A stretch of DNA of 35,130 nucleotides from a virus: positions 1 to 35,130 of the IMG/VR virus record IMGVR_UViG_3300042691_048515. One strand, given 5' to 3'. Position numbers and translations under genes: made by a program. The notes beneath the pieces are model-generated. The model did not search any database. It was not told the origin of the DNA and worked only from the letters and a program-made list of their open reading frames with translations. Positions 6,551 to 31,284 of this stretch are shown in pieces (positions within the stretch are counted from its first letter, which is position 1; every line of letters begins with the position of its first letter).

Positions 6551-8251
6551 GTGCCCGACCACCTCGACGACCCCTTCCGTCCAGCCAGACCCAGCCCCGT
6601 TCCACCCGTGGCCACCGACGACGCCGCCACCCGCCAATTCCTGCGACACCTCGAGCGCCGCCACCGCGCCGCCGATCGGGCCGCAGCCGTGCGTGCGCAT
6701 TCCGGGTCGCCCTGGTCGGAACCTGGCTGGCACGGAGCGGGCTACGACGCGGGCGAAATGGGCCGCCTGACCGGGGACTGGAACCCCGGCACCATCGGCC
6801 CCAACCGCCTGCACCAACTGCACGCCAGGACCATCCGCGAGCGGGTCCGCGACCTCGAGCGAAACAACCCCAAGGCGGTCAGCGCGATCAATGCGTTCCT
6901 GCGGAACGTGATCAGCCAAGGAATCACCCCGAAACCGCAGATCGCCAACGCGACTCTCCGCAGCGAGTGGGAAGACGAATGGGAGCACTGGGCGGGGGTG
7001 GTCCCCGGTTCCGACTTCCACTGCGATCTGGCCCAACGGCAGACCCTGTACGGGATCCAGACCCAGATCCTCCGCGAAATCATTGTGGCAGGCGGGGTGC
7101 TGGTCGTGTTCAACGGCAGCGAGCGGATCGGCAACGGCCGCCGCCACCCGCTGGCGATTGAGCTGGTTCCCGAGGAGCGGATCGCCGAGGAAAACGACAG
7201 TTGGACCAGTGGGGCGTGGGTGGCCCCTCGGTCGGGCAACCCGATCGTCCGGGGAGTGGAACTCGACCGCCGAACCGGCCGGCACCTGGCGTACTGGGTC
7301 AAGCCGGCGCAGGTCAACGACGTCGGCGGCGACGAAGGCCGCCCCGTGCGAATCGACGCCAGCCGCTGCCGCTATCTGTCCCTGCTGACGCTTACCGGGC
7401 AGGTCCGGGGGATCAGCCTGCTGGCTCCGATTGTGCTGTCGACGCAGCGGCTGGGGGGTTACCTCGACAGCGAGCTGGTCGCGGCCGAGATGAAGGCCCA
7501 ATGGGCCTACATGGTCCAGTCGAGCGACGACGCCCCCGACTTGGTCAGCACGCTGGCCGATGATGCCTCGGTCGCCGTGGTCGATGCCGACGGGAATAAA
7601 CTCGAACGGATGTCCCCGGGCTCGGTCTACTACGGCCGGCCGGGGGACAAAATCAGCGCGGTGGGGCCGAACGTCCCGCAAAGCGACTCGGTCCCGTGGA
7701 TCAACCTGATTGAGCAGTCGATCGCCCAGGGGCTCGACCTGTCGGCGATCGAACTCAGCCGCGACTACAGTCGGGTCAATTTCAGTTCCGCCCGCGCCGC
7801 CATGAACCGCGACCGCAAGACGTTCCGGGCGCTGCAAACGTTTCTGATCGATCACATCCTCAACCGGGTGTGGTACGAGTGGGTCCGCGGGGCGGTGCTC
7901 GTGGGGCGGCCGGGATTCCCCGCCGCGCAGGCGTTCCTGGACGACCCCGATCAATATCTGCGGGTTCGCTGGCGAACCCCCGGATGGGACACCGTCAACC
8001 CGGTCGACGACGCCCAAGCCCAGCGGATCATGCTGCAGGACGGCACGATCACCCGCGAAGAAATCTGCGCCGCGCGTGGTGTCGACTGGGAAGAAACCCA
8101 GCGGCAATGGGAACTGGAAAACAGCGTGTTTGGCATGGCGGGAGACCCCGCCAAAAACGCCGCAATCGACCAGACCGACGACGACTCGAGCCGGGCGGAT
8201 GATCCGCCCCCCGTCGAACCGCTCGAGGATCCTCCGGGAGAAGACACCTGA
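6551..8251 (+). CDS. Portal protein, lambda gpB family
   Basis: This 566-residue protein forms the dodecameric ring at the capsid vertex through which DNA passes and onto which the tail joins. Family hallmarks are GRLTGDWNPGTIGPNR (about 71-86), RERVRDLERNNPKAVSAINA and the connector-helix region with NFSSARAAMNRDRKTF. The length is typical of lambda-type portals. GTG 6551 follows the upstream stop closely, but the first ~20 residues are proline-rich, and an in-frame GTG at 6608 would begin MATDDAATRQ, so the true N-terminus is uncertain. The stop overlaps the next ATG by one base. Confidence 0.94.
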   Translation: MPDHLDDPFRPARPSPVPPVATDDAATRQFLRHLERRHRAADRAAAVRAHSGSPWSEPGWHGAGYDAGEMGRLTGDWNPGTIGPNRLHQLHARTIRERVRDLERNNPKAVSAINAFLRNVISQGITPKPQIANATLRSEWEDEWEHWAGVVPGSDFHCDLAQRQTLYGIQTQILREIIVAGGVLVVFNGSERIGNGRRHPLAIELVPEERIAEENDSWTSGAWVAPRSGNPIVRGVELDRRTGRHLAYWVKPAQVNDVGGDEGRPVRIDASRCRYLSLLTLTGQVRGISLLAPIVLSTQRLGGYLDSELVAAEMKAQWAYMVQSSDDAPDLVSTLADDASVAVVDADGNKLERMSPGSVYYGRPGDKISAVGPNVPQSDSVPWINLIEQSIAQGLDLSAIELSRDYSRVNFSSARAAMNRDRKTFRALQTFLIDHILNRVWYEWVRGAVLVGRPGFPAAQAFLDDPDQYLRVRWRTPGWDTVNPVDDAQAQRIMLQDGTITREEICAARGVDWEETQRQWELENSVFGMAGDPAKNAAIDQTDDDSSRADDPPPVEPLEDPPGEDT

Positions 8252-10923
8252 TGGCCGCGCCCCGCAAACACCAGCTCAGGCACCTGACGTCGCTGGCCGT
8301 CGGCACCCCGTGGGCGATTCTTCCCGACCGGTTGGCCGCGATCTGTGAGATCCTCTCGCTGCGGCGGGCAGGGCAGGGGCTCGACCCCGACGAAATCGAG
8401 GCACGCCTCGAAGGGCTGCGCGATCGCTCGGTCCCACCCGACCAACTGGTGAGCCTGCTTTACACTGCCCTGCCGCGGTCGACCCCCGGGACCAATTCGT
8501 CGCGACCGGCTGTCAGTTCCCCGACGGGGGGCAGTGCGGTGGCCGTGCTGTCGATTCTGGGGACGCTCGTTCCCCGGCGGATCGACGCCGCCAACGCCAG
8601 CGGCGGTGGGTTTGTGTCGGCCGAGGCGATCGCCCAGGCGTTCCGCCAGACCGCCGCCAACCCCGACGTCTCGACCATCGTCCTGGACATCAACAGCCCC
8701 GGCGGGGCGGTGGCAGGGATTCCCGAACTGGCCGCGACGATTGCCGAGGCGGTCGCCAACGGAACCCGCGTGATCGCTGTGGCCAATCACCTGATGGCCT
8801 CGGCCGCGTACTGGATCGGCTCGCAGGCGTCCGAGGTCGTCGCGAGTCCGTCGGCCGACGTCGGCTCGGTCGGGGTGCTGGCGATCCATCAGGAGACCAG
8901 TCTGGCCGACGCCGAAAACGGAATCACCACCACCGTCTTCCGCTCGGTCGCGCACAAAGCGGAACTGAACTCCGTCGAACCGCTCACCGCCGAGGCCCGC
9001 GCCCGGGTCGAACAGCGGATTGCGGCGGTCCACCAAAATTTTCTGGCGGCCCTCGCACGGGGCCGTAATCTGTCTGCGTCGGTCGTGGCGTCGACGTTTG
9101 GTTCCGGGCGGGTGTTGTCCGCCGAGGAAGCTCTCGCCGCCGGCATGATCGACCGCGTCGCCACCCTGGATCAGGTGCTGGCGGAATTGTTGGGCGGACA
9201 CGGCACCCCGGCTGGGGTCACGCCGACCACCACCGGGGCCACCGCCCGCCCCGCACTTCCCCCCGTTTTGGAGAATCACTCGATGGACCCCCAACTGTTG
9301 ACCGCGTTGATCCGGCTCGGAGCGATCACCGCCGCCGCCACCCCCGAGCAGGCCGAGAGCGCCCGGCAGACCCTGCTGACGATGGCGGGTTGCGATCTGG
9401 CCGCCTCGGTGGCCGACCAGCTCACCGCGCTGCAGCGGGTCGGCGGTCCGGTCGCTCAGGTCAGTGCCACCGCGGCCCCCGCTCCCGCGCACGCAATCGC
9501 CTCCCCCGTTGCCGCCGCTCCTGTGGCGAACACCTCCGGAACGTTGTCGGTCGCCGATGCGATCGCGATGGTCCGGGTCTCGGCCCTCGACGCGGCGGCC
9601 CAGCTCGACCTGATCGGGCAATTGACCAGCAGCGCCGACCCGCTCACCCCGCAAGCCGTGCTCGGCCGGATCCAACAGCAGACGCAGGCCAGCCAGCCCG
9701 CCGCCGGCGTGCGGATCGGCGTGGCCGAGGCCGAGGCCGACAAGTTTCTGACCGCCGGCCGCGACGCCCTGCTGCAGCGGGCCTGGGGGGGCAATCTCCC
9801 CCAGCAGCTCTGGAGCAACGCCGCGCAAGACTTTGTCGCGTGGCAGGCTCCCCGCCGGACCAATCACCACCTGGCGAGCTTGCCCAATCTGGCCCGGCAA
9901 AGCCTGATCGTCGCGGGGTTTGATGCCCGCACCGTCAACACGCTGGCCAATTCCGAAGTCGCACGCCTCGCCATGGGGGCCGACCCCGCCGACTTTGGGA
10001 TTCTGCGGGCCGAGGGGGCGGCGTTCAATGGCCGCGCCCAGTTCACCAACCTGCTGTACGACGCGGCGAACGTGATGCTCCGGCGATCGTACGCCGAGGC
10101 GACCAGCACGTTCCAGGCGTGGGCCCGCCGCGGCGAGAGCCTGCCGGACTTCAAGCCGGTGAACAAAGTGATCGCCGGGGAACTCTCCGACCCGCAGGTG
10201 ATCCCCGAGAACGGCACGTTCGAGGAGACGACTATGCTGGATGGTCGTGAGCCGTACTCGCTGAACACTTGGGGAGAGCGATTCAGCATCACCTGGCAGA
10301 CGATCGTCGACGACCGCTTGTCGGCGCTGACCGACATCCCCGCCAAGCAGGGGGCGGCGATGCGGCGGAAGCAAAACCGCATCGTCTACCAGGTGCTGAA
10401 GGACAACGCGGCTCTCTCCAACGACGGGGTGGCCCTGTTCCATGCGACCCACAACAACCTGACCGGCACCGGCACGGCCCTCAGCGTGGCGGCGTTCAAC
10501 GTCGCGTATGCTCTGATGGCGAAGCAGACCGGGCTGAACAGCTCGGTGTTTGTGGCGGTCGAACCGCGGTACCTGCTGGTTCCGCCGGCGATCCGGGGGA
10601 CGGCCCTCGAGTTGCTCAGCTCGACGAGCAACCCGGCCGCGAGCAACAGCAACGTCAACAACATCTGGCAGAACGGCCTGCAGCCGATTGTCGATGTCGA
10701 GTTGTCGGCTGCCGCCTCGGGTGGGTCCGATACCGCGTGGTATCTGGCCGCCGATTCGGCGACGGTCGACACGGTCGAATACGCCTACCTGCAGGGTCTC
10801 GAAACCCCGGCGTTCGAACGCCAGACGATGTTCGACCGGCTGGCCGTCGCGTTCCGCGTGTACCAGTCGTTCGCCGCCAAGGCGATTGACTTCCGTGGCC
10901 TGTACAAGAACGTCGGAGCGTAA
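8251..10923 (+). CDS. S49-type prohead protease / scaffold / major capsid fusion
   Basis: This 890-residue protein combines three phage head functions. Residues ~95-325 are a ClpP/S49-like protease: LDINSPGG (145-152), catalytic Ser184 in LMASAAYWIG, GSVGV (205-209) and general-base Lys236 in VAHKAELNS, as in lambda gpC. Residues ~345-490 are Ala/Pro/Gln-rich and low in complexity, like a scaffold. From ~496 to the end is a major capsid protein with DKFLTAGRDALLQRAW, SYAEATSTFQAWARRG and FHATHNNLTGTGTALS. Protease-capsid fusions are known in phages, but here the scaffold region carries its own internal start (9283). One predicted outcome is that the full-length form supplies protease while the shorter form builds the shell. 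Confidence 0.93.
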   Translation: MAAPRKHQLRHLTSLAVGTPWAILPDRLAAICEILSLRRAGQGLDPDEIEARLEGLRDRSVPPDQLVSLLYTALPRSTPGTNSSRPAVSSPTGGSAVAVLSILGTLVPRRIDAANASGGGFVSAEAIAQAFRQTAANPDVSTIVLDINSPGGAVAGIPELAATIAEAVANGTRVIAVANHLMASAAYWIGSQASEVVASPSADVGSVGVLAIHQETSLADAENGITTTVFRSVAHKAELNSVEPLTAEARARVEQRIAAVHQNFLAALARGRNLSASVVASTFGSGRVLSAEEALAAGMIDRVATLDQVLAELLGGHGTPAGVTPTTTGATARPALPPVLENHSMDPQLLTALIRLGAITAAATPEQAESARQTLLTMAGCDLAASVADQLTALQRVGGPVAQVSATAAPAPAHAIASPVAAAPVANTSGTLSVADAIAMVRVSALDAAAQLDLIGQLTSSADPLTPQAVLGRIQQQTQASQPAAGVRIGVAEAEADKFLTAGRDALLQRAWGGNLPQQLWSNAAQDFVAWQAPRRTNHHLASLPNLARQSLIVAGFDARTVNTLANSEVARLAMGADPADFGILRAEGAAFNGRAQFTNLLYDAANVMLRRSYAEATSTFQAWARRGESLPDFKPVNKVIAGELSDPQVIPENGTFEETTMLDGREPYSLNTWGERFSITWQTIVDDRLSALTDIPAKQGAAMRRKQNRIVYQVLKDNAALSNDGVALFHATHNNLTGTGTALSVAAFNVAYALMAKQTGLNSSVFVAVEPRYLLVPPAIRGTALELLSSTSNPAASNSNVNNIWQNGLQPIVDVELSAAASGGSDTAWYLAADSATVDTVEYAYLQGLETPAFERQTMFDRLAVAFRVYQSFAAKAIDFRGLYKNVGA
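9270..9285 (+). promoter_or_regulatory. Internal in-frame ribosome binding site and start in the capsid fusion
   Basis: GGAG at 9270-9273 lies nine bases before ATG 9283-9285, in frame with the 890-residue fusion (Met345). The start falls exactly between the end of the S49 domain and the scaffold-like segment. It would give a 546-residue scaffold-capsid product. Lambda makes its scaffold gpNu3 from the same kind of nested start inside gene C. Confidence 0.62.
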
Positions 10924-15913: not shown

Positions 15914-17485
15914 GTGGGGCAGGTGACCACCACATTTTTCGCCGATTCGCAGGCAGCCGAGGCGGCGATCGCGAAACTCGAAACGAAATACGCGAAGCTC
16001 GAGGAGAAACTGAAGGGGATCTCCCGCACCTCGCGGGAGGATGCCCGCGCCGCGTCGCAGGGAGTCGAGGAATGGGCCGGCAAAATCGGTGGGGCGATCC
16101 TCGCTTACACCGGGCTGTCCAACATTCTTCAGACCGTCGCCCAGGCCCAGCAGGAAGTCAATCGCAAGGCCGACGAGGGGGTTCTGAAGTACGACGAATT
16201 GAACCGCCGGCTGCGGGTGCAGGCGGGGCTGAGCGGCGTGCAGGGACAGCAGGCCCAGGAACGCCTGACGCAGATTGCCCTGCGGACTGGGGTCGACTAC
16301 GGCACCGCTGCCCGGGGGGCCGAGGAACTCATCTCGCAGGGATTCTCGGCCGAGCAGGGGACCGGCACCGCGTTGGAGCGGCTGCTGCAGACGATGCAGG
16401 CCACCAACGCAAGGCCCGAGGATATCAAGCTGCTCGCCCAGTCGTACTCGGCCCTTTTGGCAGGCACCGGGCAGGAGAAAAACACCGCCAACTTGGAAGA
16501 CGTCTCCCGCGCGGTGCAGCGGACGTTCAAAGGAACCCCGCTGCAGGCCCCCGACCTGATGGCGTTGGCCCCCAAGGTGCAGGGGGTCACCCAGGCGGTG
16601 CCGTGGCAGGAAGCGCTGGCTCAGTTCGCCGTCATGCGCGAAAAGGCCACCCCCGACGTCGCCGCGACCAGCCTGAAGTTGTTCTGGGAACGGCTGCAGA
16701 CCGCCAGCGGAACGAAGAGTTCCGAAGAGGCGTTGGCCAAACTGGGGTTGGCGGCGGACCAGATCGACGCGATCGGCGAGAAGCCGGCCGAAGTGCTGGA
16801 ACGGCTGGCGACCGCAATGGACAAACTGCCCAAGGCCGAGCAGGCGGGAGTGCTCAAAGATCTGTTTGGTCAGGAAGCTATGGCGGCCGCGTCGGGGCTG
16901 CTGCGCGACCGGGCCAAGGTCCAGGAGTATCTGGCCCTGCAGGGGGACGAGGCAGGCTTTCAGGCGGATGTGGGGATCCGGGCGGCAGGTCCTGCAGCGG
17001 CCCGCACCCGCGTGCAACTGCTGCAGGAACAGCAGGCCATTGCCAAGAACGCCGATTTTGAGGAGATGGTGCTGGCGGCCGAATCGCTGCAACGGGAGGC
17101 GGGCATCCCCGAGGCCCTGCTCTCGTTCCGCCGGCAGCGGGCGAACCTGCGGAACCTGATGGGGGACACTTCGATTGAGTCGATCGCCGAGATCTACACC
17201 GACCCGGCGCAGATGCAACTGCCGTTCTATCAGCGGAGCGGGGCCACGCTGCCCCCCGAACTGCTGCGGCAGCGGATCCTCGAGTTGCGGGGAGAGGCCC
17301 CCGTCGATGCGTTGGGCGAAAGCGCCAGCGTGGCTGCCGCCGCCGCCCAGGTTGCCGGCAGCCCCGAGGGGGGAGCGGCCGGCGCGGCAGCGGTCGAGAT
17401 TCAGCGCCAGCAGCTCGAACAGCTCCGTGAGCTGAACCGCAACGTCCGTCCGGCCCCCGACCGCAAACCCGAGGGGGGTGAGTGA
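15914..17485 (+). CDS. Tail tape measure protein (short)
   Basis: This 523-residue helical protein is the candidate length ruler of the tail. The N-terminus is a coiled coil (AAIAKLETKYAKLEEKLKGI, about 17-36) followed by a hydrophobic stretch, IGGAILAYTGLSNIL. The core QIALRTGVDYGTAARGAEEL, the segment after it, and LKDLFGQEAMAAASGLL match the PhageMin_Tail/TP901-type tape measure domain. At about 1.5 angstroms per residue it would set a tail of roughly 75-80 nm, shorter than lambda. GTG 15914 has GAGAGGAG upstream. The C-terminus is Gln/Glu-rich. Confidence 0.82.
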   Translation: MGQVTTTFFADSQAAEAAIAKLETKYAKLEEKLKGISRTSREDARAASQGVEEWAGKIGGAILAYTGLSNILQTVAQAQQEVNRKADEGVLKYDELNRRLRVQAGLSGVQGQQAQERLTQIALRTGVDYGTAARGAEELISQGFSAEQGTGTALERLLQTMQATNARPEDIKLLAQSYSALLAGTGQEKNTANLEDVSRAVQRTFKGTPLQAPDLMALAPKVQGVTQAVPWQEALAQFAVMREKATPDVAATSLKLFWERLQTASGTKSSEEALAKLGLAADQIDAIGEKPAEVLERLATAMDKLPKAEQAGVLKDLFGQEAMAAASGLLRDRAKVQEYLALQGDEAGFQADVGIRAAGPAAARTRVQLLQEQQAIAKNADFEEMVLAAESLQREAGIPEALLSFRRQRANLRNLMGDTSIESIAEIYTDPAQMQLPFYQRSGATLPPELLRQRILELRGEAPVDALGESASVAAAAAQVAGSPEGGAAGAAAVEIQRQQLEQLRELNRNVRPAPDRKPEGGE

Positions 17486-17913
17486 TGGGCTATTCCTATG
17501 TCGGTCCCTACGGATTCCTGACGCTGCACCGCACCGACGACCCGCGCGGCGGCCCGCTGGTCCCCCGGGAACAGTGCGAGGTGATCAACCGGCCGGGGGT
17601 CAACGGCACCGCGGTGCTGCGGACCGGCAAACGCTCCGAACCGTTTACGATGCGGAGCTTCGTCGACGTCGCCAGCCTGGCCATCGTGCCGACCGCTGTC
17701 TCGGCCTATCAATCGCTGATCGGGACGGTCGTCAATGTGATCTGGCAGGACACCGACTATCAGGCCACCTACGGGGTCCGGTTCGCCGTGCTCGACTGCG
17801 TCTGCCAGTCGTCGCGGCGGGTGCTGGCCCGGGCGGGGGGTGCGGTGGCGGGCTCGACCGCCGTTGTGGAAATTCTCTGGACGCTGCAACCGGTGCTGGA
17901 GGTCGCCGAGTGA
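17485..17913 (+). CDS. Minor tail protein (distal-tail-like)
   Basis: This 142-residue protein starts MGYSYVGPYGFLTLHRTDDP. It contains EVINRPGVNGTAVLRTGKRS, then EPFTMRSFVDVASL and a beta-rich C-terminal half with SLIGTVVNVIWQDTDYQATY. The PGVNG...GKR..PF pattern resembles N-terminal beta-barrels of distal tail proteins. ATG 17485 overlaps the tape-measure stop (TGATG), with GAGGGGGG as ribosome binding site. Context, after the tape measure and before the large tip protein, supports a tail tip role. Confidence 0.68.
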   Translation: MGYSYVGPYGFLTLHRTDDPRGGPLVPREQCEVINRPGVNGTAVLRTGKRSEPFTMRSFVDVASLAIVPTAVSAYQSLIGTVVNVIWQDTDYQATYGVRFAVLDCVCQSSRRVLARAGGAVAGSTAVVEILWTLQPVLEVAE

Positions 17914-20195
17914 CCATCACCATCGGCCAAACCGTTCTGCAGACCATCGAAACCACCCGCGACCGGATCCGCGACGCTGTCCGCTCGCGGGTCTACCGGG
18001 CCGACACGCTGGGAGCCGACTGGGAGGAGGTGCCGTATCTGCATGTCGACGACCTGTCGATCCGCAGCTCCCCCGGGATCGACGACTGCCGCCTGAGCTA
18101 TCTGTACGGGCCGATCTGCCGGGAAGACGACACCCAGTTCCGCGACTACGACCGGCTGGACCTGATCGGCAGCTACATCAAAGTCGTGTTGGAGGGGGCC
18201 ACGCTCGACGGGGAAGACGTCACCTGGTACGGCGTGGTCGAGATCGACGACACCGTTCCCATGGGCTCCGGTCCGCTGCAAGACACCCCGCGGGGCAACC
18301 AGCGGTTTACCGCCTATGGGCTGGCCCGGCTGCTCGAGCGGGCGATTGTGCTGTCCACCCGGGTGGACGCCAGCCAAGGGACGAGTTTCCCCACGCAGTC
18401 GGTCGCGGTGGAATACGGCGAGCAGTTCAACGAACTGGGGAACGCCCTCAAGACGCGGCAGGGGAACCGGGCCGAGGCCACCGAAAACAACGACCCCACT
18501 CAGCCGTACTGGTTCAGTCGCACCATCACCAGCGAATCGGTCTGGACGGCCGATGCGGCTGTGCGGTACCTGCTGGCCCAGCACGCCCCCCGCGACGGCC
18601 ACGACGAACCGGTCTGCGAGTGGGTGCTGGATGGCGACCCGGGGGACCCCCGGCTGAACTGGTATGACCCCGTGGTGCCGACCGACGGCCGGACGGTGAA
18701 GTCGATTCTCGACGAGCTGATTCCGTTCCGGCGGGGGGTCGCCTACGGGGTGCGGTACGACGAGAGCCCCGGCCCCCGCGGGCGGGTCACGATCGTCCCG
18801 TTTTCGTTCGCCTCGGACGATCTGGTCCTGCCCGACGACCGGGTGCTCCCCGCCAACGCGCAGCCGGTCACCCTGAATTTTGAAAACGCCCTGGACGTCG
18901 AGGCCCGGATCGTCGAGTCGCTGACCACCAGCTACGACGAGGTGGTCGCGATGGGGACGTTTGCGACGTCGACCTGTACTTTGGCGTTTGGCCGGCACGC
19001 ATTTGAGCGGGGCAGCTCGTTCCTGCTGCGGCCCGACTGGACCACCACGCAGGAAACCAGCTACCGCACCGGCGCGACCGGCACCGCCGGCTACAGCTCG
19101 CTGCCGCTGGCGTACCAGTACGAGGCCCAGACCCGGTTCCGGCAGCGGGACGATCTGCGTCCCGTCTTCCGGAGATGGGCCCTCTATGAATACTGGGACG
19201 GCCTGGTCTGGGACTACGAAAAGGCCGAGTCGGCCGCAACCAAGTACAGTTTCAATCCCCCGTGGTACCAGTCGGAGAGCACCGGGTTTTCGGCCCGCGA
19301 CAGCAAGCCGCAGGCCGATCCGATCCAGCCGTACGCCGAGCGGAACGAAATCCCCGAGTACGCCGCGTCGCGGCTGGTGTTCGAGCCGTATCTGCCCCTG
19401 CAGGACCGGGCCGATTACAGCGGCGACCGGATCAAAAACGCCACCTGGAAAGACGACGTCCCCGACGCCACCGACTGGCAGTTCCTGCCCCCCTTGCTGT
19501 ACGTGATCACCGACAACAGCACGATTTCCGCTCCCAAATACGACGTGCTGCACCGTCTGGCCGAACAGTCGTCGAACGAACGGCAGCGGCGGCGGTGGTC
19601 GGCCACGCTGCGGGTGCTCCCCGATCGTCCGGCGGTCGAGGTCGACGTGCACGGGGCGCCGCAGCATTTCCTCAGCGCCGATTCGGCTGCGACGCTGCAG
19701 GGGCTCGAACCGTTCAATGACCCCAGCAAAGAGAACGGGGTGATGTTTGAGCAGATGCGGGCGACCATCACGCTGCGGCTGCCGTGGCGGGTGCAGCAGC
19801 GGAAAAAGATCCGCACCGAGCCGGTCGGAGGCCGCCCCTGGCGGCGGCTGGTGATTCCGGTCGAGGCCCGGCTCGACTACGTCGTCCCCGACACGGTGGT
19901 CCGCATCAGCAACGGACTGGCCGAGCGGTCGAGCGGCGGCTTTGTCCGGGACGACCGGCTGCGGCTGTCGCAGATTGTCGAGGCGGCGACCCGCTGGTAC
20001 CAGACCGAGCGGCAGACGCTGTTTTTCCGGATCCGCGGAGTGGTCGAGACCGTCACGCTCGGGCAGCTCGTGACCAGTGTCGGCGGCCGGTATATCCTCG
20101 AGGGGATCAACACCCCCGTGACCGGGATCCGCTATGATCTGCTGCAACAGGTCACCGAGCTGGAAACCTCGCTGGCCCAGGTCGATTTCACATGA
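17910..20195 (+). CDS. Large tail tip / hub protein
   Basis: This 761-residue protein begins MTITIGQTVLQTIETTRDRI. The first third (YLHVDDLSIRSSPGIDDCRL, WYGVVEIDDTVP, GNQRFTAYGLARLLERAIVL) resembles the beta-barrel hub domains of phage tail proteins, and the later part is rich in Tyr, Trp and Arg. GTG 17910 overlaps the upstream stop (GTGA). The in-frame extension back to 17478 overlaps the previous gene and looks like a shadow. Size and place suggest the central hub or fibre-attachment protein; no enzymatic motif is evident. Confidence 0.68.
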   Translation: MTITIGQTVLQTIETTRDRIRDAVRSRVYRADTLGADWEEVPYLHVDDLSIRSSPGIDDCRLSYLYGPICREDDTQFRDYDRLDLIGSYIKVVLEGATLDGEDVTWYGVVEIDDTVPMGSGPLQDTPRGNQRFTAYGLARLLERAIVLSTRVDASQGTSFPTQSVAVEYGEQFNELGNALKTRQGNRAEATENNDPTQPYWFSRTITSESVWTADAAVRYLLAQHAPRDGHDEPVCEWVLDGDPGDPRLNWYDPVVPTDGRTVKSILDELIPFRRGVAYGVRYDESPGPRGRVTIVPFSFASDDLVLPDDRVLPANAQPVTLNFENALDVEARIVESLTTSYDEVVAMGTFATSTCTLAFGRHAFERGSSFLLRPDWTTTQETSYRTGATGTAGYSSLPLAYQYEAQTRFRQRDDLRPVFRRWALYEYWDGLVWDYEKAESAATKYSFNPPWYQSESTGFSARDSKPQADPIQPYAERNEIPEYAASRLVFEPYLPLQDRADYSGDRIKNATWKDDVPDATDWQFLPPLLYVITDNSTISAPKYDVLHRLAEQSSNERQRRRWSATLRVLPDRPAVEVDVHGAPQHFLSADSAATLQGLEPFNDPSKENGVMFEQMRATITLRLPWRVQQRKKIRTEPVGGRPWRRLVIPVEARLDYVVPDTVVRISNGLAERSSGGFVRDDRLRLSQIVEAATRWYQTERQTLFFRIRGVVETVTLGQLVTSVGGRYILEGINTPVTGIRYDLLQQVTELETSLAQVDFT

Positions 20196-20746
20196 AGTTC
20201 CGCGACGCGCTGCAGACGGTCGGCGGTCCGAGTGAGGCGGCCCGCCAACGGGCGCAGGCCGAGGCCCGGCAGGTGCGGGCTCCCGTGGTCCAGCGGTCGC
20301 CCTATGTGTTTTTCCGGATCGTCGCCAACGAAACCGGGACCACGACGACGACCACGACGACGACCACCACCACACCGCCGGGAACGACGACCACCACCAC
20401 CACCACGACCACCACGACCACAACCACGACGCAGCCCCCCTGCTCGGGCCGGTTGTGGTTTGGAGTGGCGGTCGAGGTGCAGTATGACGGCACACCGATC
20501 GCGTACGGGTGGCGCAGTCTCGTGGTCACCCCCCGCGACGACACGCAGGTCTATCCGCTGCTCTCCAGCATGTCCCTGCAACTCGAGATCGACGACATTG
20601 TCATTGCCACGTTTGTGAACGGCCGGTACTGGATCCTCGAGGCCTATACCAACTGCCCGCAGGCGAGCGTCACCACGACGACCACGACGACGACCACGAC
20701 CACCAGCAGCACCTCCCCCCCGCCGCGGGTCTGGAGGCAGGCATGA
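20192..20746 (+). CDS. Tail protein with poly-threonine linkers, paralogue 1
   Basis: This 184-residue protein has three parts. The N-terminus, MKFRDALQTVGGPSEAARQR, is helical and shared in form with the next gene. Two threonine runs of 12 and 16 residues are separated by PPG. A beta domain (RLWFGVAVEVQYDGTPIAYG, IDDIVIATFVNGRYWILEAY) follows, and a third 11-Thr run precedes SSTSPPP. Poly-Thr segments are stiff, extended linkers and favoured O-glycosylation sites. ATG 20192 overlaps the hub stop. It is probably a tail tip or fibre component. Confidence 0.78.
   Translation: MKFRDALQTVGGPSEAARQRAQAEARQVRAPVVQRSPYVFFRIVANETGTTTTTTTTTTTTPPGTTTTTTTTTTTTTTTTQPPCSGRLWFGVAVEVQYDGTPIAYGWRSLVVTPRDDTQVYPLLSSMSLQLEIDDIVIATFVNGRYWILEAYTNCPQASVTTTTTTTTTTTSSTSPPPRVWRQA
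20339..20431 (+). repeat. ACC/ACG codon tract encoding two poly-Thr runs
   Basis: This tract has twelve Thr codons (20339-20374), a Pro-Pro-Gly interruption, then sixteen Thr codons (20384-20431). ACC and ACG are mixed rather than perfectly repeated, so the amino acid is conserved more than the DNA unit. Confidence 0.9.
20672..20704 (+). repeat. ACC/ACG codon tract, 11 Thr
   Basis: This third threonine run of the first paralogue lies just before its C-terminal SSTSPPP segment, so it forms a C-terminal tail rather than an interdomain linker. Confidence 0.85.
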
Positions 20747-21747
20747 AATTCCGCGACTACCTGGCCCAGCCGGCAGCTCCGGTTCCGGTCGCTGCTCCGG
20801 CCACGCAGGATGAGCAACTGCTGTTTGCGAGCCTGAGCGAATGGACCCCGCCATTTTGGGACCCGTACAACCTCAGCCAGCGGGCGGTGCAAAACGCCCA
20901 GTACGACTACGGCGACGCAGTCCCGCTGCCCTACACGACCTACACCGGGTGTTTCGTCTGGACCCAGCGGTTTCAGACGATTGAAGTGGGGGAGCAGTAC
21001 CTCAACTGGCGGTACGTCTCGGAGATCCCCACCAGGGCGGTCCGCGATTTCACGTTCCGCCAGACCGCCGTCAGCCGGCCGACACTGCGCGAGGGCTGGT
21101 TCCCCCAGGACGGGGTCGGGCTGCGGCTCACGCTGATCACCAACGAAAACGGCCGGTTCTGGGGCCTCGCGACCGCGGGGGACCGCTGCACGACGACCAC
21201 CACCACCACGCAGCCCCCCTGCAACTGCACGACCCATCCCAGCATGCAGTTCACGATCAGCGGGATCAGCCTGCGGCCGGGGGCAGGGCAGTGCAACGCC
21301 ACCGACCAGATCTGCAGCCAGTTCAACCGCACGTGGTGTCTGCCGTTCCGGGGCAAGACGTTCGACTGGGGCGCGGCCCCCTGCGTCTGGGATTACACCC
21401 TGAGTTACAACAATGGCTGTCCCCCGGGCTCGCTGTGGTATGGTCCCGATTCGCGGATTGCCGCGAAAATCCGCTGGCCCTTGGCAAAAATCTACGACCC
21501 GGCGACCAGCACGTACGTCTGCCCGGCCGAACTCGATTTCGGGGTCTACCGCTATCAATCGCTCGACTTCAACCCCGATACGGGGGGCACCTTCACCGAC
21601 GGCAACCAGGCGACCCCGTGGGCGCCCACCTGTATCGGCTGGCCCACCAGTGTGACGGTCACCGCCAGCGCGAACTGCAATCCCGACCCCCCGACGACGA
21701 CCACCACCACCACCACCACAACCACGACCGGCCCGCCGGGACCGTGA
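20743..21747 (+). CDS. Cys-rich tail/adhesin-like protein with poly-Thr linkers, paralogue 2
   Basis: This 334-residue protein shares its opening, MKFRDYLAQP, with the preceding gene. A beta-rich region follows, then a 7-Thr run, QPPCNC, and a Cys-rich module: FTISGISLRPGAGQCNATDQ, FNRTWCLPFRGKTFDW, APCVWDYTLSYNNGCPPG. It ends in 12 threonines and GPPGP. The Cys/Trp-rich beta module resembles repeats common in extracellular planctomycete proteins, which suggests host-surface recognition. ATG 20743 overlaps the previous stop (ATGA). The final Thr tail could attach or expose a glycan. Confidence 0.76.
   Translation: MKFRDYLAQPAAPVPVAAPATQDEQLLFASLSEWTPPFWDPYNLSQRAVQNAQYDYGDAVPLPYTTYTGCFVWTQRFQTIEVGEQYLNWRYVSEIPTRAVRDFTFRQTAVSRPTLREGWFPQDGVGLRLTLITNENGRFWGLATAGDRCTTTTTTTQPPCNCTTHPSMQFTISGISLRPGAGQCNATDQICSQFNRTWCLPFRGKTFDWGAAPCVWDYTLSYNNGCPPGSLWYGPDSRIAAKIRWPLAKIYDPATSTYVCPAELDFGVYRYQSLDFNPDTGGTFTDGNQATPWAPTCIGWPTSVTVTASANCNPDPPTTTTTTTTTTTTGPPGP
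21190..21210 (+). repeat. ACC/ACG codon tract, 7 Thr
   Basis: This is the linker between the two beta modules of the second paralogue, directly before a CxC motif. Confidence 0.8.
21694..21729 (+). repeat. ACC/ACG codon tract, 12 Thr
   Basis: This threonine run ends the second paralogue, followed only by Gly-Pro-Pro-Gly-Pro and the stop. Confidence 0.85.
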
Positions 21748-21757
21748 GCGTCGGCCG

Positions 21758-21820
21758 GTTTTGGAATTTCAAAAAAATAGGTTCGCTATCGCTTGCATTT
21801 CCAAAACTGGCGGCTAAAGT
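21758..21820 (+). promoter_or_regulatory. Promoter with AT-rich upstream element and inverted repeat
   Basis: TTGCAT (21793-21798) and TAAAGT (21815-21820) are 16 bases apart, the same -35 and spacing as the leftward promoters. An AT-rich block (GAATTTCAAAAAAATAG) lies upstream in otherwise GC-rich DNA, like an UP element. GTTTTGGAA (21758-21766) and TTCCAAAAC (21799-21807) form a perfect 9-bp inverted repeat, one arm inside the spacer, suiting an operator. The next ATG is only seven bases beyond the -10, so the transcript could be leaderless. Confidence 0.6.
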
Positions 21821-21827
21821 GTCCGGC

Positions 21828-23078
21828 ATGTCGCAGTCATTTCCCCATTCGCCGACCCTGCTGGAGCGGGCTCAACGCTACGCCGCCGCCCTGTGGCGAC
21901 ACGCGGCCGACGGCCTGCGGATCACCTCGCCGGATGAACTCGCCCGCCGGCTGGCGATTTGTCAACACTGCCCCTCGGGGGAGTTTGACGGGGCGGGGTG
22001 CCGGGTTTGCGGCTGTCCGGTGAACAGCACCGAAAACAGCCTGCGGAACAAACTGGCCATGGCGTCCGAAACCTGCCCCCGCGGACACTGGCAGGCCGAG
22101 GGAGCGACCGCAATCCAGCGGCCCCGGCTGACGGTCGGGATGTGCATGGTGGACGATTTCGATGGGGTCTATTTCACGGTGCAGGCGTTGAATCTGTACC
22201 ACCGCGAGCTGCGGGGGCAGCTCGAGATCCTCGTCGTCGACAACCGCCCGCGGCTCGACGACCACGGCAGTTCCCCCGAAGCGGCCGCGCAGACGGGAGA
22301 AACCCCCAGTCAGCGGGTCCGGAACCTGATGGCCATGATCCCCAACGGCCGCTACCTCCCCTACACCAACCGGCAGGGGACCGCGGCCCGCGATCAGGTG
22401 TTTGAGCAGGCCCGCGGCGAGGTGGTGATCTGCGTCGACTCGCACGTGCTGATCGCTCCGGGAGCGCTCCGCCGCACACTCGACTGGCTGGACGAGCACC
22501 CCGGGTTTCATGGGCTGTTTCAGGGGCCCCTCGAATACGACAACGGGTCGGTCAGCACCCACCAGGTCCGCACGTGGGGCGCCGGGATGCTGGGCCAGTG
22601 GGCGCTCGACTCCCGCTACCGCGGCGACGACGGTCCGGCGCTCGACATCGACCTGCAGGGGCTGGGGTTGTTTGGCTGCTGGCGGGACGACTGGCTGGGG
22701 TTCAACCCGCATTTCCGGGAGTTCGGTGGCGAAGAGGGGTACGTGCACGACAAATACCGGGCGGCGGGCCGGCCCGTCGTCTGCCTCCCCTGGCTGCGGT
22801 GGATCCACCGGTTTCAGGCAACCGGGCAGCATGCAAATTACGCCAGTTCGATGCGGCAGCGGATCAAAAACTACATCCACGGGCGGATTGAACTGGATCA
22901 GGATCTCGACGACATCCACGCCCATTTCTACGGCGTGGAACCTTACGGGCTCGGTCGCGATCCGCAGGAGTGGATTGAGCTGTTGCGGGAGTGCGATGCA
23001 GAGTGCGAGTCGGCGACGCGCACTCAGGAGTGGCAGTCGACCGCCGCACCAACCGGCGACGACTGTGCTGGTGGTTAG
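21828..23078 (+). CDS. Family 2-type glycosyltransferase with N-terminal zinc-binding segment
   Basis: This 416-residue protein has two parts. Residues ~45-87 carry a Cys cluster (CQHCPS, CRVCGCP and a later ETCPRGHW) preceded by helices, a likely zinc site. From ~100 is a GT2-like nucleotide-sugar domain: LTVGMCMVDDFDGVYFTVQA, EILVVDNRP (133-141), and GEVVICVDSHVLIAPGAL with DSH (about 204-206) at the metal-binding position. The middle has FGCWRDDWLGFNPHFREFGG and GEEGYVHDKY, resembling acceptor-side motifs. It directly follows the poly-Thr tail genes behind its own promoter, so a role in glycosylating phage proteins is plausible but unproven. Confidence 0.85.
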   Translation: MSQSFPHSPTLLERAQRYAAALWRHAADGLRITSPDELARRLAICQHCPSGEFDGAGCRVCGCPVNSTENSLRNKLAMASETCPRGHWQAEGATAIQRPRLTVGMCMVDDFDGVYFTVQALNLYHRELRGQLEILVVDNRPRLDDHGSSPEAAAQTGETPSQRVRNLMAMIPNGRYLPYTNRQGTAARDQVFEQARGEVVICVDSHVLIAPGALRRTLDWLDEHPGFHGLFQGPLEYDNGSVSTHQVRTWGAGMLGQWALDSRYRGDDGPALDIDLQGLGLFGCWRDDWLGFNPHFREFGGEEGYVHDKYRAAGRPVVCLPWLRWIHRFQATGQHANYASSMRQRIKNYIHGRIELDQDLDDIHAHFYGVEPYGLGRDPQEWIELLRECDAECESATRTQEWQSTAAPTGDDCAGG

Positions 23079-23236: not shown

Positions 23237-23683
23237 ATGCGAACTGCGTTGTGGATGTGGGGGGTGTTGTGTGTGTCACTGCTGCCGCAGGGTGTGCGGG
23301 GGCAGACAGTCGATCAGCCGGCGCTGGTGCAGCAGTACGATCAGGCGGCGGCGGCGCACAACGCCGCGATTGATGTGCTGATCGATCTGGCGCAGAAATC
23401 GGCCGATCCCGAGTTCCGGAAAATCATCGCCCGGGGCAGTGACGCGATTGCGGCGGGATCTGAGTCGCTCGGCTCGGCCCGGGTCAACGTGCAGGCGGCG
23501 GGGACGACGGCCGGTATTTACGCCCAGGCGGTGCGGGACGGACGAATTGCCGACGCGCGAGCCGCCGCCAGCCTGTGGAGCAAACAGGCGACTGTCGCCC
23601 GCGATCACCTGCAGGTCTGGGGGCAAGAGCTGTCGAAAGCCCAAACCGCGATTGAAGCGGCCCGCCGCTGGTTGATGCTGTAG
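23237..23683 (+). CDS. Exported helical protein of unknown function
   Basis: This 148-residue protein starts with a signal peptide: MRTALWMW, core GVLCVSLLPQG, and likely cleavage after VRG before QTVD. The mature part is almost entirely helical, with Ala-rich heptads (DQAAAAHNAAIDVLIDLAQK, ARAAASLWSKQATVARDHLQ). It would act in the periplasm or on the cell surface. A strong GGAGGG precedes ATG 23237; the longer upstream frame is rejected. It may be an envelope-remodelling or superinfection-exclusion factor, but no motif shows which. Confidence 0.75.
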   Translation: MRTALWMWGVLCVSLLPQGVRGQTVDQPALVQQYDQAAAAHNAAIDVLIDLAQKSADPEFRKIIARGSDAIAAGSESLGSARVNVQAAGTTAGIYAQAVRDGRIADARAAASLWSKQATVARDHLQVWGQELSKAQTAIEAARRWLML

Positions 23684-26146: not shown

Positions 26147-27271
26147 ATGACTGACCCGACTGCCCCGAGCTACACCGCCCAGGCCCTGCGGACCGAGAGC
26201 CCGATCACCCCCGCGCTGCAGACGCGGCTGCAGCAGCAGGCCCGGCTGGTGCACGCCGTGCTGGGGCTGCAGACCGAGGCGGGGGAACTCGCCGACCCGG
26301 TCAAGAAACACATCTACTACGGCCGCCCGCTCGACCCGGTCAACCTGCGGGAGGAGATCGGGGACTGTCTGTGGTATCTGGCGGTCGCCTGCGACGCGCT
26401 GGGGACGACCCTCGAGGCCGAGCAGGCCCGCAACCTGGCCAAACTGCGAGCCCGCTATCCCCACGTGTTCACCGCCGAGGCCGCCCACGTGCGGGACCTC
26501 GACCGCGAGCGGCAGGTGTTGGAGGGGAATGACCTCGGCACGCTGCTGGAACAATCCCAACGAGTCGTCAGTGATGCGTTTTCAGAAGTGAACTCTCTGC
26601 GGCAGCAACTCGACGCGGCCCGGGCCGAGATCGAGACGCTGCGGCAGGAACTCGCCAGCGCCAAGCGGGCCGCATCCGACGAATTTACCGAGCGGCAGGT
26701 GCTGACGGTCGAGCAGCAGCAGGACGCGGCGATCTGGCAGCAGCAGTTGGACGCGGCCAGAGCCGAGATCGAGACGCTGAAAGGCGCGATGGCGGCCGAC
26801 GACAAACGGCTGCGAGACGCAGAGCAAAGGGTCTGGCCCGGTATGACGTGGGGTTGTGATTCTCCGGACAAGATGGCCGACGCGATCCTGCACCTGCGGA
26901 AGCAACTCGCGGAACAACAGGCCGAGACCATCGACGTGCGACGGCCACGCAACAATGAGACTGACCGACTCAACGCAACGAATGCCGTTTCTGTGCAGCA
27001 ACGCGACGAGATTGCCTACCTGCGGACCAGACTCGACGAAGAGCGGTCTGTCAGTGCTGGAGTGCGGGAGAAACTCACGGCCGCAGAGGCAGCGGTGACT
27101 CTCCAGCGTGCGGGGATCGAGCGGCTGCAGGCGTTCGTCGGCATGGTTCGGGAACTGTTGGCAACTCCGCTCGCTCAAATTTCCTACGACGACATGTCTG
27201 TTGTGCGAGCGGAATTCGCAGCACTCGACGATGAGCCCACCCCGGTGGCCAAGCCGGAGGGCGGGAAGTGA
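26147..27271 (+). CDS. MazG-like nucleotide pyrophosphohydrolase fused to a long coiled coil
   Basis: This 374-residue protein. Residues ~20-110 form a MazG-type all-alpha NTP-pyrophosphatase: GLQTEAGELADPVKKHIYYG with E44xxE47, and LREEIGDCLWYLAVACDALG with E70xxD73, the metal-binding pattern. MazG enzymes clear noncanonical or alarmone nucleotides (for example ppGpp) or feed nucleotide modification pathways. From ~115 to ~340 is a heptad-rich region, including a near-repeat (QQLDAARAEIETLRQELAS, then the same opening followed by KGAMAADD). Typical phage MazG proteins are ~100-150 residues, so the coiled-coil extension is unusual and may make a large oligomer or scaffold it to another factor. 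Confidence 0.85.
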   Translation: MTDPTAPSYTAQALRTESPITPALQTRLQQQARLVHAVLGLQTEAGELADPVKKHIYYGRPLDPVNLREEIGDCLWYLAVACDALGTTLEAEQARNLAKLRARYPHVFTAEAAHVRDLDRERQVLEGNDLGTLLEQSQRVVSDAFSEVNSLRQQLDAARAEIETLRQELASAKRAASDEFTERQVLTVEQQQDAAIWQQQLDAARAEIETLKGAMAADDKRLRDAEQRVWPGMTWGCDSPDKMADAILHLRKQLAEQQAETIDVRRPRNNETDRLNATNAVSVQQRDEIAYLRTRLDEERSVSAGVREKLTAAEAAVTLQRAGIERLQAFVGMVRELLATPLAQISYDDMSVVRAEFAALDDEPTPVAKPEGGK

Positions 27272-29552: not shown

Positions 29553-30433
29553 TGCCCGCCCCCACAAAAATCGTCTGCCTGTGTCCCACCTACTGCCGGC
29601 CGTGGCACGTCTCGTCCAGTGTCGGCCAATGGTTGCAGCAGACCCACCCGGCCGAGGAACGCTGGCTGCTGATCGGTGACGACGCCGACGCCCTGGGGGG
29701 TCTGAGCACCGCCCGCCTGCGGGACGCGATCAAGGGACAGGGCTTCTCCGCCGAGGTGGCGGGCCGGGTGTGGCACCACAAGTTCCACTCGGCGTTCACC
29801 CTGCCGCACAAATACAACGCCATGGCGCAGTACGCCCTGACGTTTGTCTGCCCCGACGCGGATCTGCTCGTCGTCTGGGAGGACGACGACACCTACCTGC
29901 CCGGTCACCTGGCCCAGATCGCTCGGGCGTGGAACCTGCGGAATCGTCCGGCGACCTGGTGGGGCCACCCCGAGCGGGTCTGGTCCGACTACACGCTGAC
30001 ACTGCAGGACGAGCCCGCCGCCGGCCGGTTTCATGCGGCGCTGGCCTTGTCGGTTGAGCTGTGGCACCAGAGCCCGTGGGTGGAAACCGCCGACGGGAAT
30101 TTCGACCAGCAGTTTTTGTCAGCTCTCGCCCGGCAGACGCCGCGGTCCCGGTACGACCTTTCGACGGGGAAAAACATCTGGTGGTCGACCCCGTCGTACG
30201 TGTTCCGCTGGCACACCCAGACGCCGCACGGGCAGGCGTTCATGCCCGACCACGGCCGCAACTGGCAGTCGGCCGCCAAACAGGCGTTGCGGGCCGAATT
30301 TGCGGCCCGGATGGGGGCCTGGGACTGCACGGCCCTCGTCGATGGGCTGAGCGCCAAACACATTGCCACCGCGACTGAACTGGGCAAACACCCCGTGTCG
30401 CGGCCAATTCCTGTCACCCCGGGGCCGCAGTGA
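29552..30433 (+). CDS. Second family 2-like glycosyltransferase
   Basis: This 293-residue protein. The N-terminal Rossmann-like strand KIVCLCPTYCRPWHV is followed by LLIGDDADALGG. The segment LLVVWEDDDTYLPGHL carries the DxD metal motif at about 111-113, and FDQQFLSALARQTPRSRYDL follows. This layout fits a GT2-like transferase. It has no zinc segment, unlike the first one. It sits just upstream of the integrase and overlaps it by four bases. A glycan acceptor (DNA base, tail protein or host surface) is not indicated by the sequence alone. Confidence 0.78.
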   Translation: MPAPTKIVCLCPTYCRPWHVSSSVGQWLQQTHPAEERWLLIGDDADALGGLSTARLRDAIKGQGFSAEVAGRVWHHKFHSAFTLPHKYNAMAQYALTFVCPDADLLVVWEDDDTYLPGHLAQIARAWNLRNRPATWWGHPERVWSDYTLTLQDEPAAGRFHAALALSVELWHQSPWVETADGNFDQQFLSALARQTPRSRYDLSTGKNIWWSTPSYVFRWHTQTPHGQAFMPDHGRNWQSAAKQALRAEFAARMGAWDCTALVDGLSAKHIATATELGKHPVSRPIPVTPGPQ

Positions 30434-31284
30434 CTTTCAACAAACTGACCGAGCTGTTCCTGCAGCACCACCGCCAGAACCATTCGGCGGCGAATACCGT
30501 GGTGTTCTATCGGACCCAACTGGGGCAGCTCGCCGCCGCGGGCCTGCACGCGAAACCGATCGCCAAAATCACGCCAGCCGACATCCTGGGGGCGCTCGCG
30601 ACCGCCAACGCGGGGAAATCTCCCACCACGCAACGCAGCCGGGCGGTCGCCCTCGACCAACTGCAAAAGTACGCCGTTACCCTCGAACTGCTGCCCAAAC
30701 CGTGGTGCAGCAAACTCCCCAAACCGACCCCGCGGCAACGGGACCGGATCCCGACCGACGAGGAGACCAAGGCGATTCTGCGGCACAGCAACGCCCGGTT
30801 CCGGCTGATCTATCAGGCCCTGCGGCTGTCTGGTGCCCGGCCCAACGAACTCTGTCGGGCGCAGATTGACGACTTTCAACGCGACGCCAACGGCGAAACC
30901 GGAGTCATTGTGCTGGCGGAACACAAAACCGCCCGCAAGAGCGGCAAGCCGCGGACGATTGTCGTGGGGCGGAAGCTGGGAAAACTGCTGCGGCTGGCGA
31001 TTGGCAAACGGAAAACCGGGCCGCTGTTTCAGGCGCCCCGGGGGAACGGCTGGACGGTCAAAAACCTGTCGACCCAGTTTTTGCGAGCCCGCACCGCTGC
31101 GGGGCTCGACCGCGAGCTGGTTCTGTATTCCGCCCGCCACGAAGCCGGCACGGCGTTCTGCAGGGAACACGGGATTCTGCAGGCCTCGCGACTGCTCGGC
31201 CACGCCACCATCAACACGACCCAGCGGTACGTGCACCCCGACGTTGAAGAACTGAAACAGGCGCAGGACGCCGCCCACGGGTGA
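30430..31284 (+). CDS. int: Tyrosine recombinase (phage integrase)
   Basis: This 284-residue enzyme catalyses site-specific integration and, with a directionality factor, excision. The N-terminal core-binding region precedes catalytic Arg137 (in LRLSGARPNELC), Lys166 in EHKTARKSG, Tyr233-Arg236-His237 (YSARHEAGTAF, where the usual His of HxxR is Tyr, a tolerated variant), His258 in LLGHATINTTQ and the nucleophile Tyr267 in RYVHP. The arm-binding domain is short, as in simple phage integrases. GTG 30430 overlaps the preceding gene. A hairpin directly downstream marks the end of the operon. No attachment site could be identified. Confidence 0.94.
   Translation: MTFNKLTELFLQHHRQNHSAANTVVFYRTQLGQLAAAGLHAKPIAKITPADILGALATANAGKSPTTQRSRAVALDQLQKYAVTLELLPKPWCSKLPKPTPRQRDRIPTDEETKAILRHSNARFRLIYQALRLSGARPNELCRAQIDDFQRDANGETGVIVLAEHKTARKSGKPRTIVVGRKLGKLLRLAIGKRKTGPLFQAPRGNGWTVKNLSTQFLRARTAAGLDRELVLYSARHEAGTAFCREHGILQASRLLGHATINTTQRYVHPDVEELKQAQDAAHG

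Follow-up and report, generated by a model that had tools for sequence, protein, structure and literature searches.

Poly-threonine proteins and a GalNAc-transferase-like enzyme form a putative mucin-type O-glycosylation module in phages

The window, i.e., the whole stretch of DNA analyzed here, is the 35,130-base IMG/VR phage contig IMGVR_UViG_3300042691_048515. It contains a cassette of two genes for proteins with long threonine tracts and one gene for a glycosyltransferase (GT), located among the following genes:

164-2104, GpA-type terminase
6551-8251, portal
8251-10923, fused protease and major head protein
15914-17485, tape-measure-like protein
17910..20195, + strand, large structural protein of 761 aa, upstream of the cassette
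20192..20746, + strand, poly-Thr protein 1 (184 aa), whose three Thr tracts border small globular segments
20743..21747, + strand, poly-Thr protein 2 (334 aa)
21828..23078, + strand, putative polypeptide O-glycosyltransferase (416 aa), the next ORF after poly-Thr protein 2
26147-27271, MazG-like protein
30430-31284, tyrosine-type phage integrase

Since terminase, portal, head, and tape-measure-like genes are accompanied by an integrase gene, the window virus is a tailed and probably temperate phage. The position of the cassette in the tail gene block, downstream of the tape-measure-like gene, suggests that this block ends with it. Pfam and PHROGs searches gave no match for the large structural protein and no tail family for either poly-Thr protein, and RNA families and tRNAs were not found in the window. 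The initial annotation had assigned the GT gene its own promoter; our scan, which covers sigma-70-like sites, found none between positions 21500 and 23300, and we have dropped this assignment. Outside the cassette, the head maturation protease/major head protein fusion is a single 890-aa ORF, an arrangement also annotated in Rhodobacter capsulatus phages, the MazG-like domain is fused to a long region weakly matching coiled-coil families, and a small ORF with a signal-peptide-like N-terminus (23238-23683) lies directly 3' of the GT gene.

The initial annotation had reported threonine runs of 12, 16, 11, 7, and 12 residues in two proteins. All five are in frame, in the ORFs 20192-20746 and 20743-21747:

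20339..20374, + strand, Thr tract of 12 residues, poly-Thr protein 1
20384..20431, + strand, Thr tract of 16 residues, poly-Thr protein 1
20672..20704, + strand, Thr tract of 11 residues, poly-Thr protein 1
21190..21210, + strand, Thr tract of 7 residues, poly-Thr protein 2, invariant in 4/4 phages
21694..21729, + strand, C-terminal Thr tract of 12 residues, poly-Thr protein 2, T/S mixed in distant relatives

Three related phage contigs (L002, L005, and L006), found among viral contigs with the P0002 query and with alignment queries, show the same gene order of large structural protein, tract protein 1, tract protein 2, and GT. Single-sequence searches with P0003 and P0004 returned no match among viral contigs, and two scans of genome contigs yielded no relative. 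L249 was considered as a fifth relative and rejected because it duplicates the L002 contig. The proteins of the relatives share 60-80% identity with those of the window (63-80% for the large structural protein). The exception is tract protein 2, for which identity drops to 38-40% in L005 and L006; even in these two the 7-Thr run is unchanged and the terminal tract remains.

The tracts are encoded by a mixture of ACC, ACG, and ACA, at frequencies close to those among the other Thr codons of both genes. In the relatives their position is kept and their length is near-constant, while the codons have changed synonymously; between the window and L002, 22 of the 42 codons in length-conserved tracts differ in this way. 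Because the codons are mixed and vary synonymously at constant length, a simple DNA repeat does not account for the tracts, and DNA slippage as their origin was rejected on the same grounds. Residue changes within the tracts are from Thr to Ser in 17/19 cases, compared to 8/57 at Thr positions elsewhere in both proteins (Fisher 3.7e-9); the unit counted is the alignment cell, and because the four phages are related the events are not fully independent. Thus, in these four phages the tracts tolerate Ser and almost no other residue. Given the bias from Thr to Ser and the synonymous codon change at kept length, the object of selection appears to be the hydroxyl side chains and the length, and not a DNA repeat.

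The product of the third gene had been described as a GT2-like transferase with a zinc-binding N-terminus. Its features are:

21945..22097, + strand, Cys-rich N-terminal domain, probably zinc-binding (phrog_13558, E 1.3e-6)
22119..23003, + strand, GT-A catalytic core, the segment modeled
22437..22445, + strand, predicted DXH (Asp-Ser-His) metal-binding motif, D204-H206, a family motif
22722..22736, + strand, FGGEE motif, aligned with WGGEN of GalNAc-T7
22800..22814, + strand, W-x-H-R-F motif, with H327 aligned with a GalNAc-T7 His

A Pfam scan detected the glycosyltransferase domain PF00535 in the gene product (21828-23078, E 4.7e-7), and the N-terminal residues C45, C48, C58, C61, C63, C83, and H87 are invariant in the four phages. 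The window GT is not an ordinary GT2 enzyme: such enzymes carry D-x-D at the position where it has D-x-H, and its modeled fold resembles that of CAZy family GT27, the polypeptide GalNAc-transferases that initiate mucin O-glycosylation in animals. We sampled its family using a DNA pattern for GM(x4)D[FY]DGVYFT, which is present in at least 119 viral stretches. Among the matches listed, 116 ORFs were recovered, and all 112 that reach the catalytic motif contain D-x-H, mostly as DCH or DSH. An alignment of 46 members, all of which match PF00535, shows D107, H109, the two acidic residues of GFGGEE, W228, H230, R231, and F232 to be invariant or nearly so (core numbering; +97 gives the full-protein numbering). 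Neither PHROGs nor NCBIfam holds a specific model for the family. Searching INPHARED phages by tblastn gave no match for three family members and, for the window GT, a weak match limited to the N-terminus, and one family member had no match among plasmids.

When all six-frame ORFs of the GT loci were scanned for the Cys-rich domain, the best scores fell in the GT ORFs of L189, L268, L271, L222, L260, and L279. Short ORFs apart from the GT scored as well in L221, L263, and L206, the weaker scores being marginal (E about 0.01). The domain may thus be fused to, or lie near, other GTs of the family as well. Separately, L182, L189, L222, L238, L268, L271, and similar contigs have GT ORFs of about 580-850 aa with additional C-terminal regions, some with a Cys-rich insert.

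A structure model of the window GT core, built from the 46-sequence alignment, reached a mean pLDDT of 93.9 and replaced an earlier, poor AlphaFold model from four sequences (pLDDT 49). In a Foldseek comparison with the PDB, all matches listed were polypeptide GalNAc-transferases (best E 4.5e-13). Using VIA-align, human GalNAc-T2 ranked first (Z 23.0, rmsd 2.9, 253 residues) and rows 1-29 were all polypeptide GalNAc-transferases, whereas the first protein of another kind followed at Z 19.4 over 180 residues and RmlT at Z 19.2. A profile of the C-terminal half had GalNAc-T7 as its sole hit in the PDB set, with an E of 0.23 that is not significant alone; this alignment places FGGEE opposite WGGEN and the motif His opposite a GalNAc-T7 His which we take to be the third metal ligand of GT27. 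Another profile match to GalNAc-T7 had an E of 0.03, with Pfam assigning PF00535.

As modeled, the window GT therefore resembles GT27 (ppGalNAc-T1, T2, T7, T10, T12, and Toxoplasma GalNAc-T3), its best structural matches, in its GT-A fold and DXH metal motif and perhaps also in a GGE(N/E) motif and the His aligned with GalNAc-T7, and Thr/Ser-rich acceptors would be common to both if the tracts are its substrate. It differs in that its sequence identity to GT27 is 14-18%, that it is phage-encoded, and that it has a Cys-rich N-terminal domain instead; within its 416 aa, a Pfam scan found no C-terminal ricin-type lectin domain, and no Golgi anchor was recognized. The lectin domain is usual but not universal in GT27 and so is not strictly defining. 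A fold shared by a predicted model would not by itself fix the acceptor. With bacterial transferases of the GT2 family (PF00535, e.g., RmlT) the window GT has the GT-A domain in common, but it carries DXH, not DXD, and stands nearer to GT27 in the fold comparison.

A GT of this kind could also act on the host surface, as a GtrB-like or wall-polysaccharide transferase involved in serotype conversion or superinfection exclusion. Four of the 46 family members do weakly match phrog_22739, annotated as 'GtrB-like O-antigen conversion' (best 1.8e-5), and with an integrase in the window phage lysogens may form. The window GT itself matched none of the GtrB PHROGs. The replacement of DXD by DXH, the location of the gene after the tail genes and adjoining the tract proteins, where no gtrA-like partner was recognized, and the lead of GalNAc-transferases among the PDB matches all argue against this function, which we regard as improbable. 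GT-A enzymes that modify DNA are a known kind of phage enzyme, and hydroxymethylated bases of the phage genome would then be the target. Among the window ORFs scanned, however, no TET, hydroxymethylase, or related gene was recognized, and the linkage is to Thr-tract genes; a DNA-modifying role is hardly credible.

To relate the enzyme to tracts beyond the four close phages, we inspected the loci of the whole family sample. A Thr/Ser-tract ORF was present in the fetched locus of 49 of the 116 GT ORFs among the matches listed. Clustering the GT loci at 80% identity gave 60 non-redundant clusters, again among the matches listed, in which the 4 kb upstream of the GT contained 35 tract bins per 172 covered kb, compared to 5 per 413 kb elsewhere, corresponding to an about 17-fold enrichment on the same strand. 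Upstream tracts are mostly found within 1-2 kb, and 21 of about 55 clusters have one in the last 1 kb before the GT. In the 60 clusters, no Thr/Ser tract was detected downstream of the GT or on the opposite strand. Control low-complexity tracts ([AG], [PS], [NQ], [KE], and [VI]) did not exceed 0.04 per kb in this upstream region. A neighbor test based on simple gene tiling, with clusters at 65% identity and Thr/Ser-rich defined as at least 12 of 16, gave a consistent picture: the immediate same-strand neighbor was Thr/Ser-rich upstream in 12/31 clusters and downstream in 0/28 (Fisher 1.5e-4). Once the tracts were masked, the upstream proteins that carry them sorted into 21 families without detectable mutual similarity, which suggests that the pairing either arose many times or travels between carriers as an enzyme-tract unit. 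Ten of these proteins were searched and matched no known phage family, except for fragments such as fibronectin type III.

The main rival to tract glycosylation is the tail-module neighborhood of both genes. The tracts could be plain flexible tail linkers and the GT could modify another virion or host-surface target, the genes hitch-hiking together in a shared tail-end block. The view from the tract side lends this explanation some weight, and it speaks against tract glycosylation that GT-A enzymes with other acceptors, such as RmlT, come close behind in the fold comparison. In an independent set of viral contigs, each containing 12 or more Thr codons in a row, the GT family is clearly present in 8/90, near the tract in 7/8 by locus position, and it is absent from all 10 contigs in which the Thr-codon pattern is out of frame. 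Of the 38 poly-Thr contigs of 20 kb or more, 15 contain a PF00535 match and 23 none; the match lies at most 3.5 kb from the tract in 8 of the 15, compared to 3.1 expected (p 0.003). Starting from poly-Thr, the general link to GT2 is thus weaker than when one starts from the GT. Since most poly-Thr phage contigs lack the GT family, poly-Thr can exist without the enzyme and the dependence is one-way; more than half of the GT clusters in turn have no adjoining tract, so either part can stand alone.

Nonetheless, we consider hitch-hiking unlikely. It does not readily account for an enrichment that is strictly upstream, on the same strand, and close to the GT, for its recurrence with 21 unrelated tract proteins, for the rarity of the control tracts at the same position, for the Thr-to-Ser bias within tracts, or for a fold nearest to polypeptide transferases. 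The proposal of the initial annotation that the neighboring transferase glycosylates the tracts accordingly gains strength at its core, given the fold and DXH, the upstream pairing, and the tolerance of Ser and little else, but does not extend to a general rule in the reverse direction. The same holds for the co-occurrence of tracts and transferase in relatives to which it had pointed: all four close phages keep both parts, whereas across phages poly-Thr often occurs without the GT. As 8/90 poly-Thr contigs have the GT and 23/38 lack PF00535, not every tract has a GT2-type enzyme from its own phage at its disposal. In the remaining cases the task may fall to host enzymes or to transferases of other families, and the contigs are fragments.

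Several PF00535 proteins of long poly-Thr contigs carry other DXH motifs. L018 (IMGVR_UViG_3300024262_006261, G008), a 56-kb contig, has a 60-Thr run, eleven PF00535 matches, and a DAH-type enzyme near the tract. GT2-like proteins with DAH (DAHC, DAHV, DAHT) are also present in the poly-Thr contigs L132, L141, L142, and L143; they fall outside the profile of the window GT family and possibly represent further GT27-like subfamilies.

We think that the three genes probably constitute a phage-encoded mucin-type O-glycosylation module, in which the most likely function of the enzyme is to O-glycosylate the tracts of a virion appendage. The two Thr-tract proteins would be the acceptors and probably virion appendage proteins, because their genes are the distal ones of the tail block. 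From the third gene would come a soluble cytoplasmic GT-A enzyme whose structure and active-site motifs relate it to the polypeptide GalNAc-transferases of animals. During infection, this enzyme would take a nucleotide sugar from the host, with the metal held by D204, H206, and H327, and attach single sugars to the hydroxyl groups of Thr and Ser within the tracts, while the Cys-rich N-terminal domain would probably recruit the substrate. Before assembly, the tracts would in this way become stiff, extended, densely glycosylated linkers. The benefit to the virion may lie in stiffening, in shielding from proteases or antibodies, or in adhesion; the tuning of receptor binding and the location at a tail tip, both put forward by the initial annotation, are conceivable. 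Beyond the window, we lean toward the view that a DXH-containing, GT27-like family encoded immediately downstream of unrelated Thr/Ser-tract structural proteins represents a widespread, previously unnamed form of phage mucin-type O-glycosylation in many uncultivated phages.

To our knowledge, phage virions are usually treated as unglycosylated, and the mycobacteriophage exceptions known to us use other enzymes. The window GT is unrelated to Che8 gp108, gp109, and gp110 (hhalign probabilities of 12.7, 0.2, and 0.1%), and gp108 has DDD where the window GT has DSH. According to Freeman et al. (2023), as cited in PMC11256854 and PMC12363180, the mycobacteriophages Che8, Corndog, and Myrna glycosylate their own virion proteins. 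Their system resembles the proposed module in that the glycosyltransferases are phage-encoded, with the phages' own capsid and tail tube proteins as targets, and differs from it in enzyme type and acceptor design. Virion glycosylation by phages would thus not be new in itself; by analogy, it would be carried out here with a type of enzyme best known from animals.

If this interpretation is true, mucin-like glycoproteins are produced by bacterial viruses inside the cytoplasm of bacteria. For dozens of phage lineages, an enzyme and its substrate would be predicted directly; poly-Thr tracts in phage proteins would gain a possible function and GT27 a possible evolutionary relative, and simple bacterial enzymes may become available for the production of O-glycoproteins.
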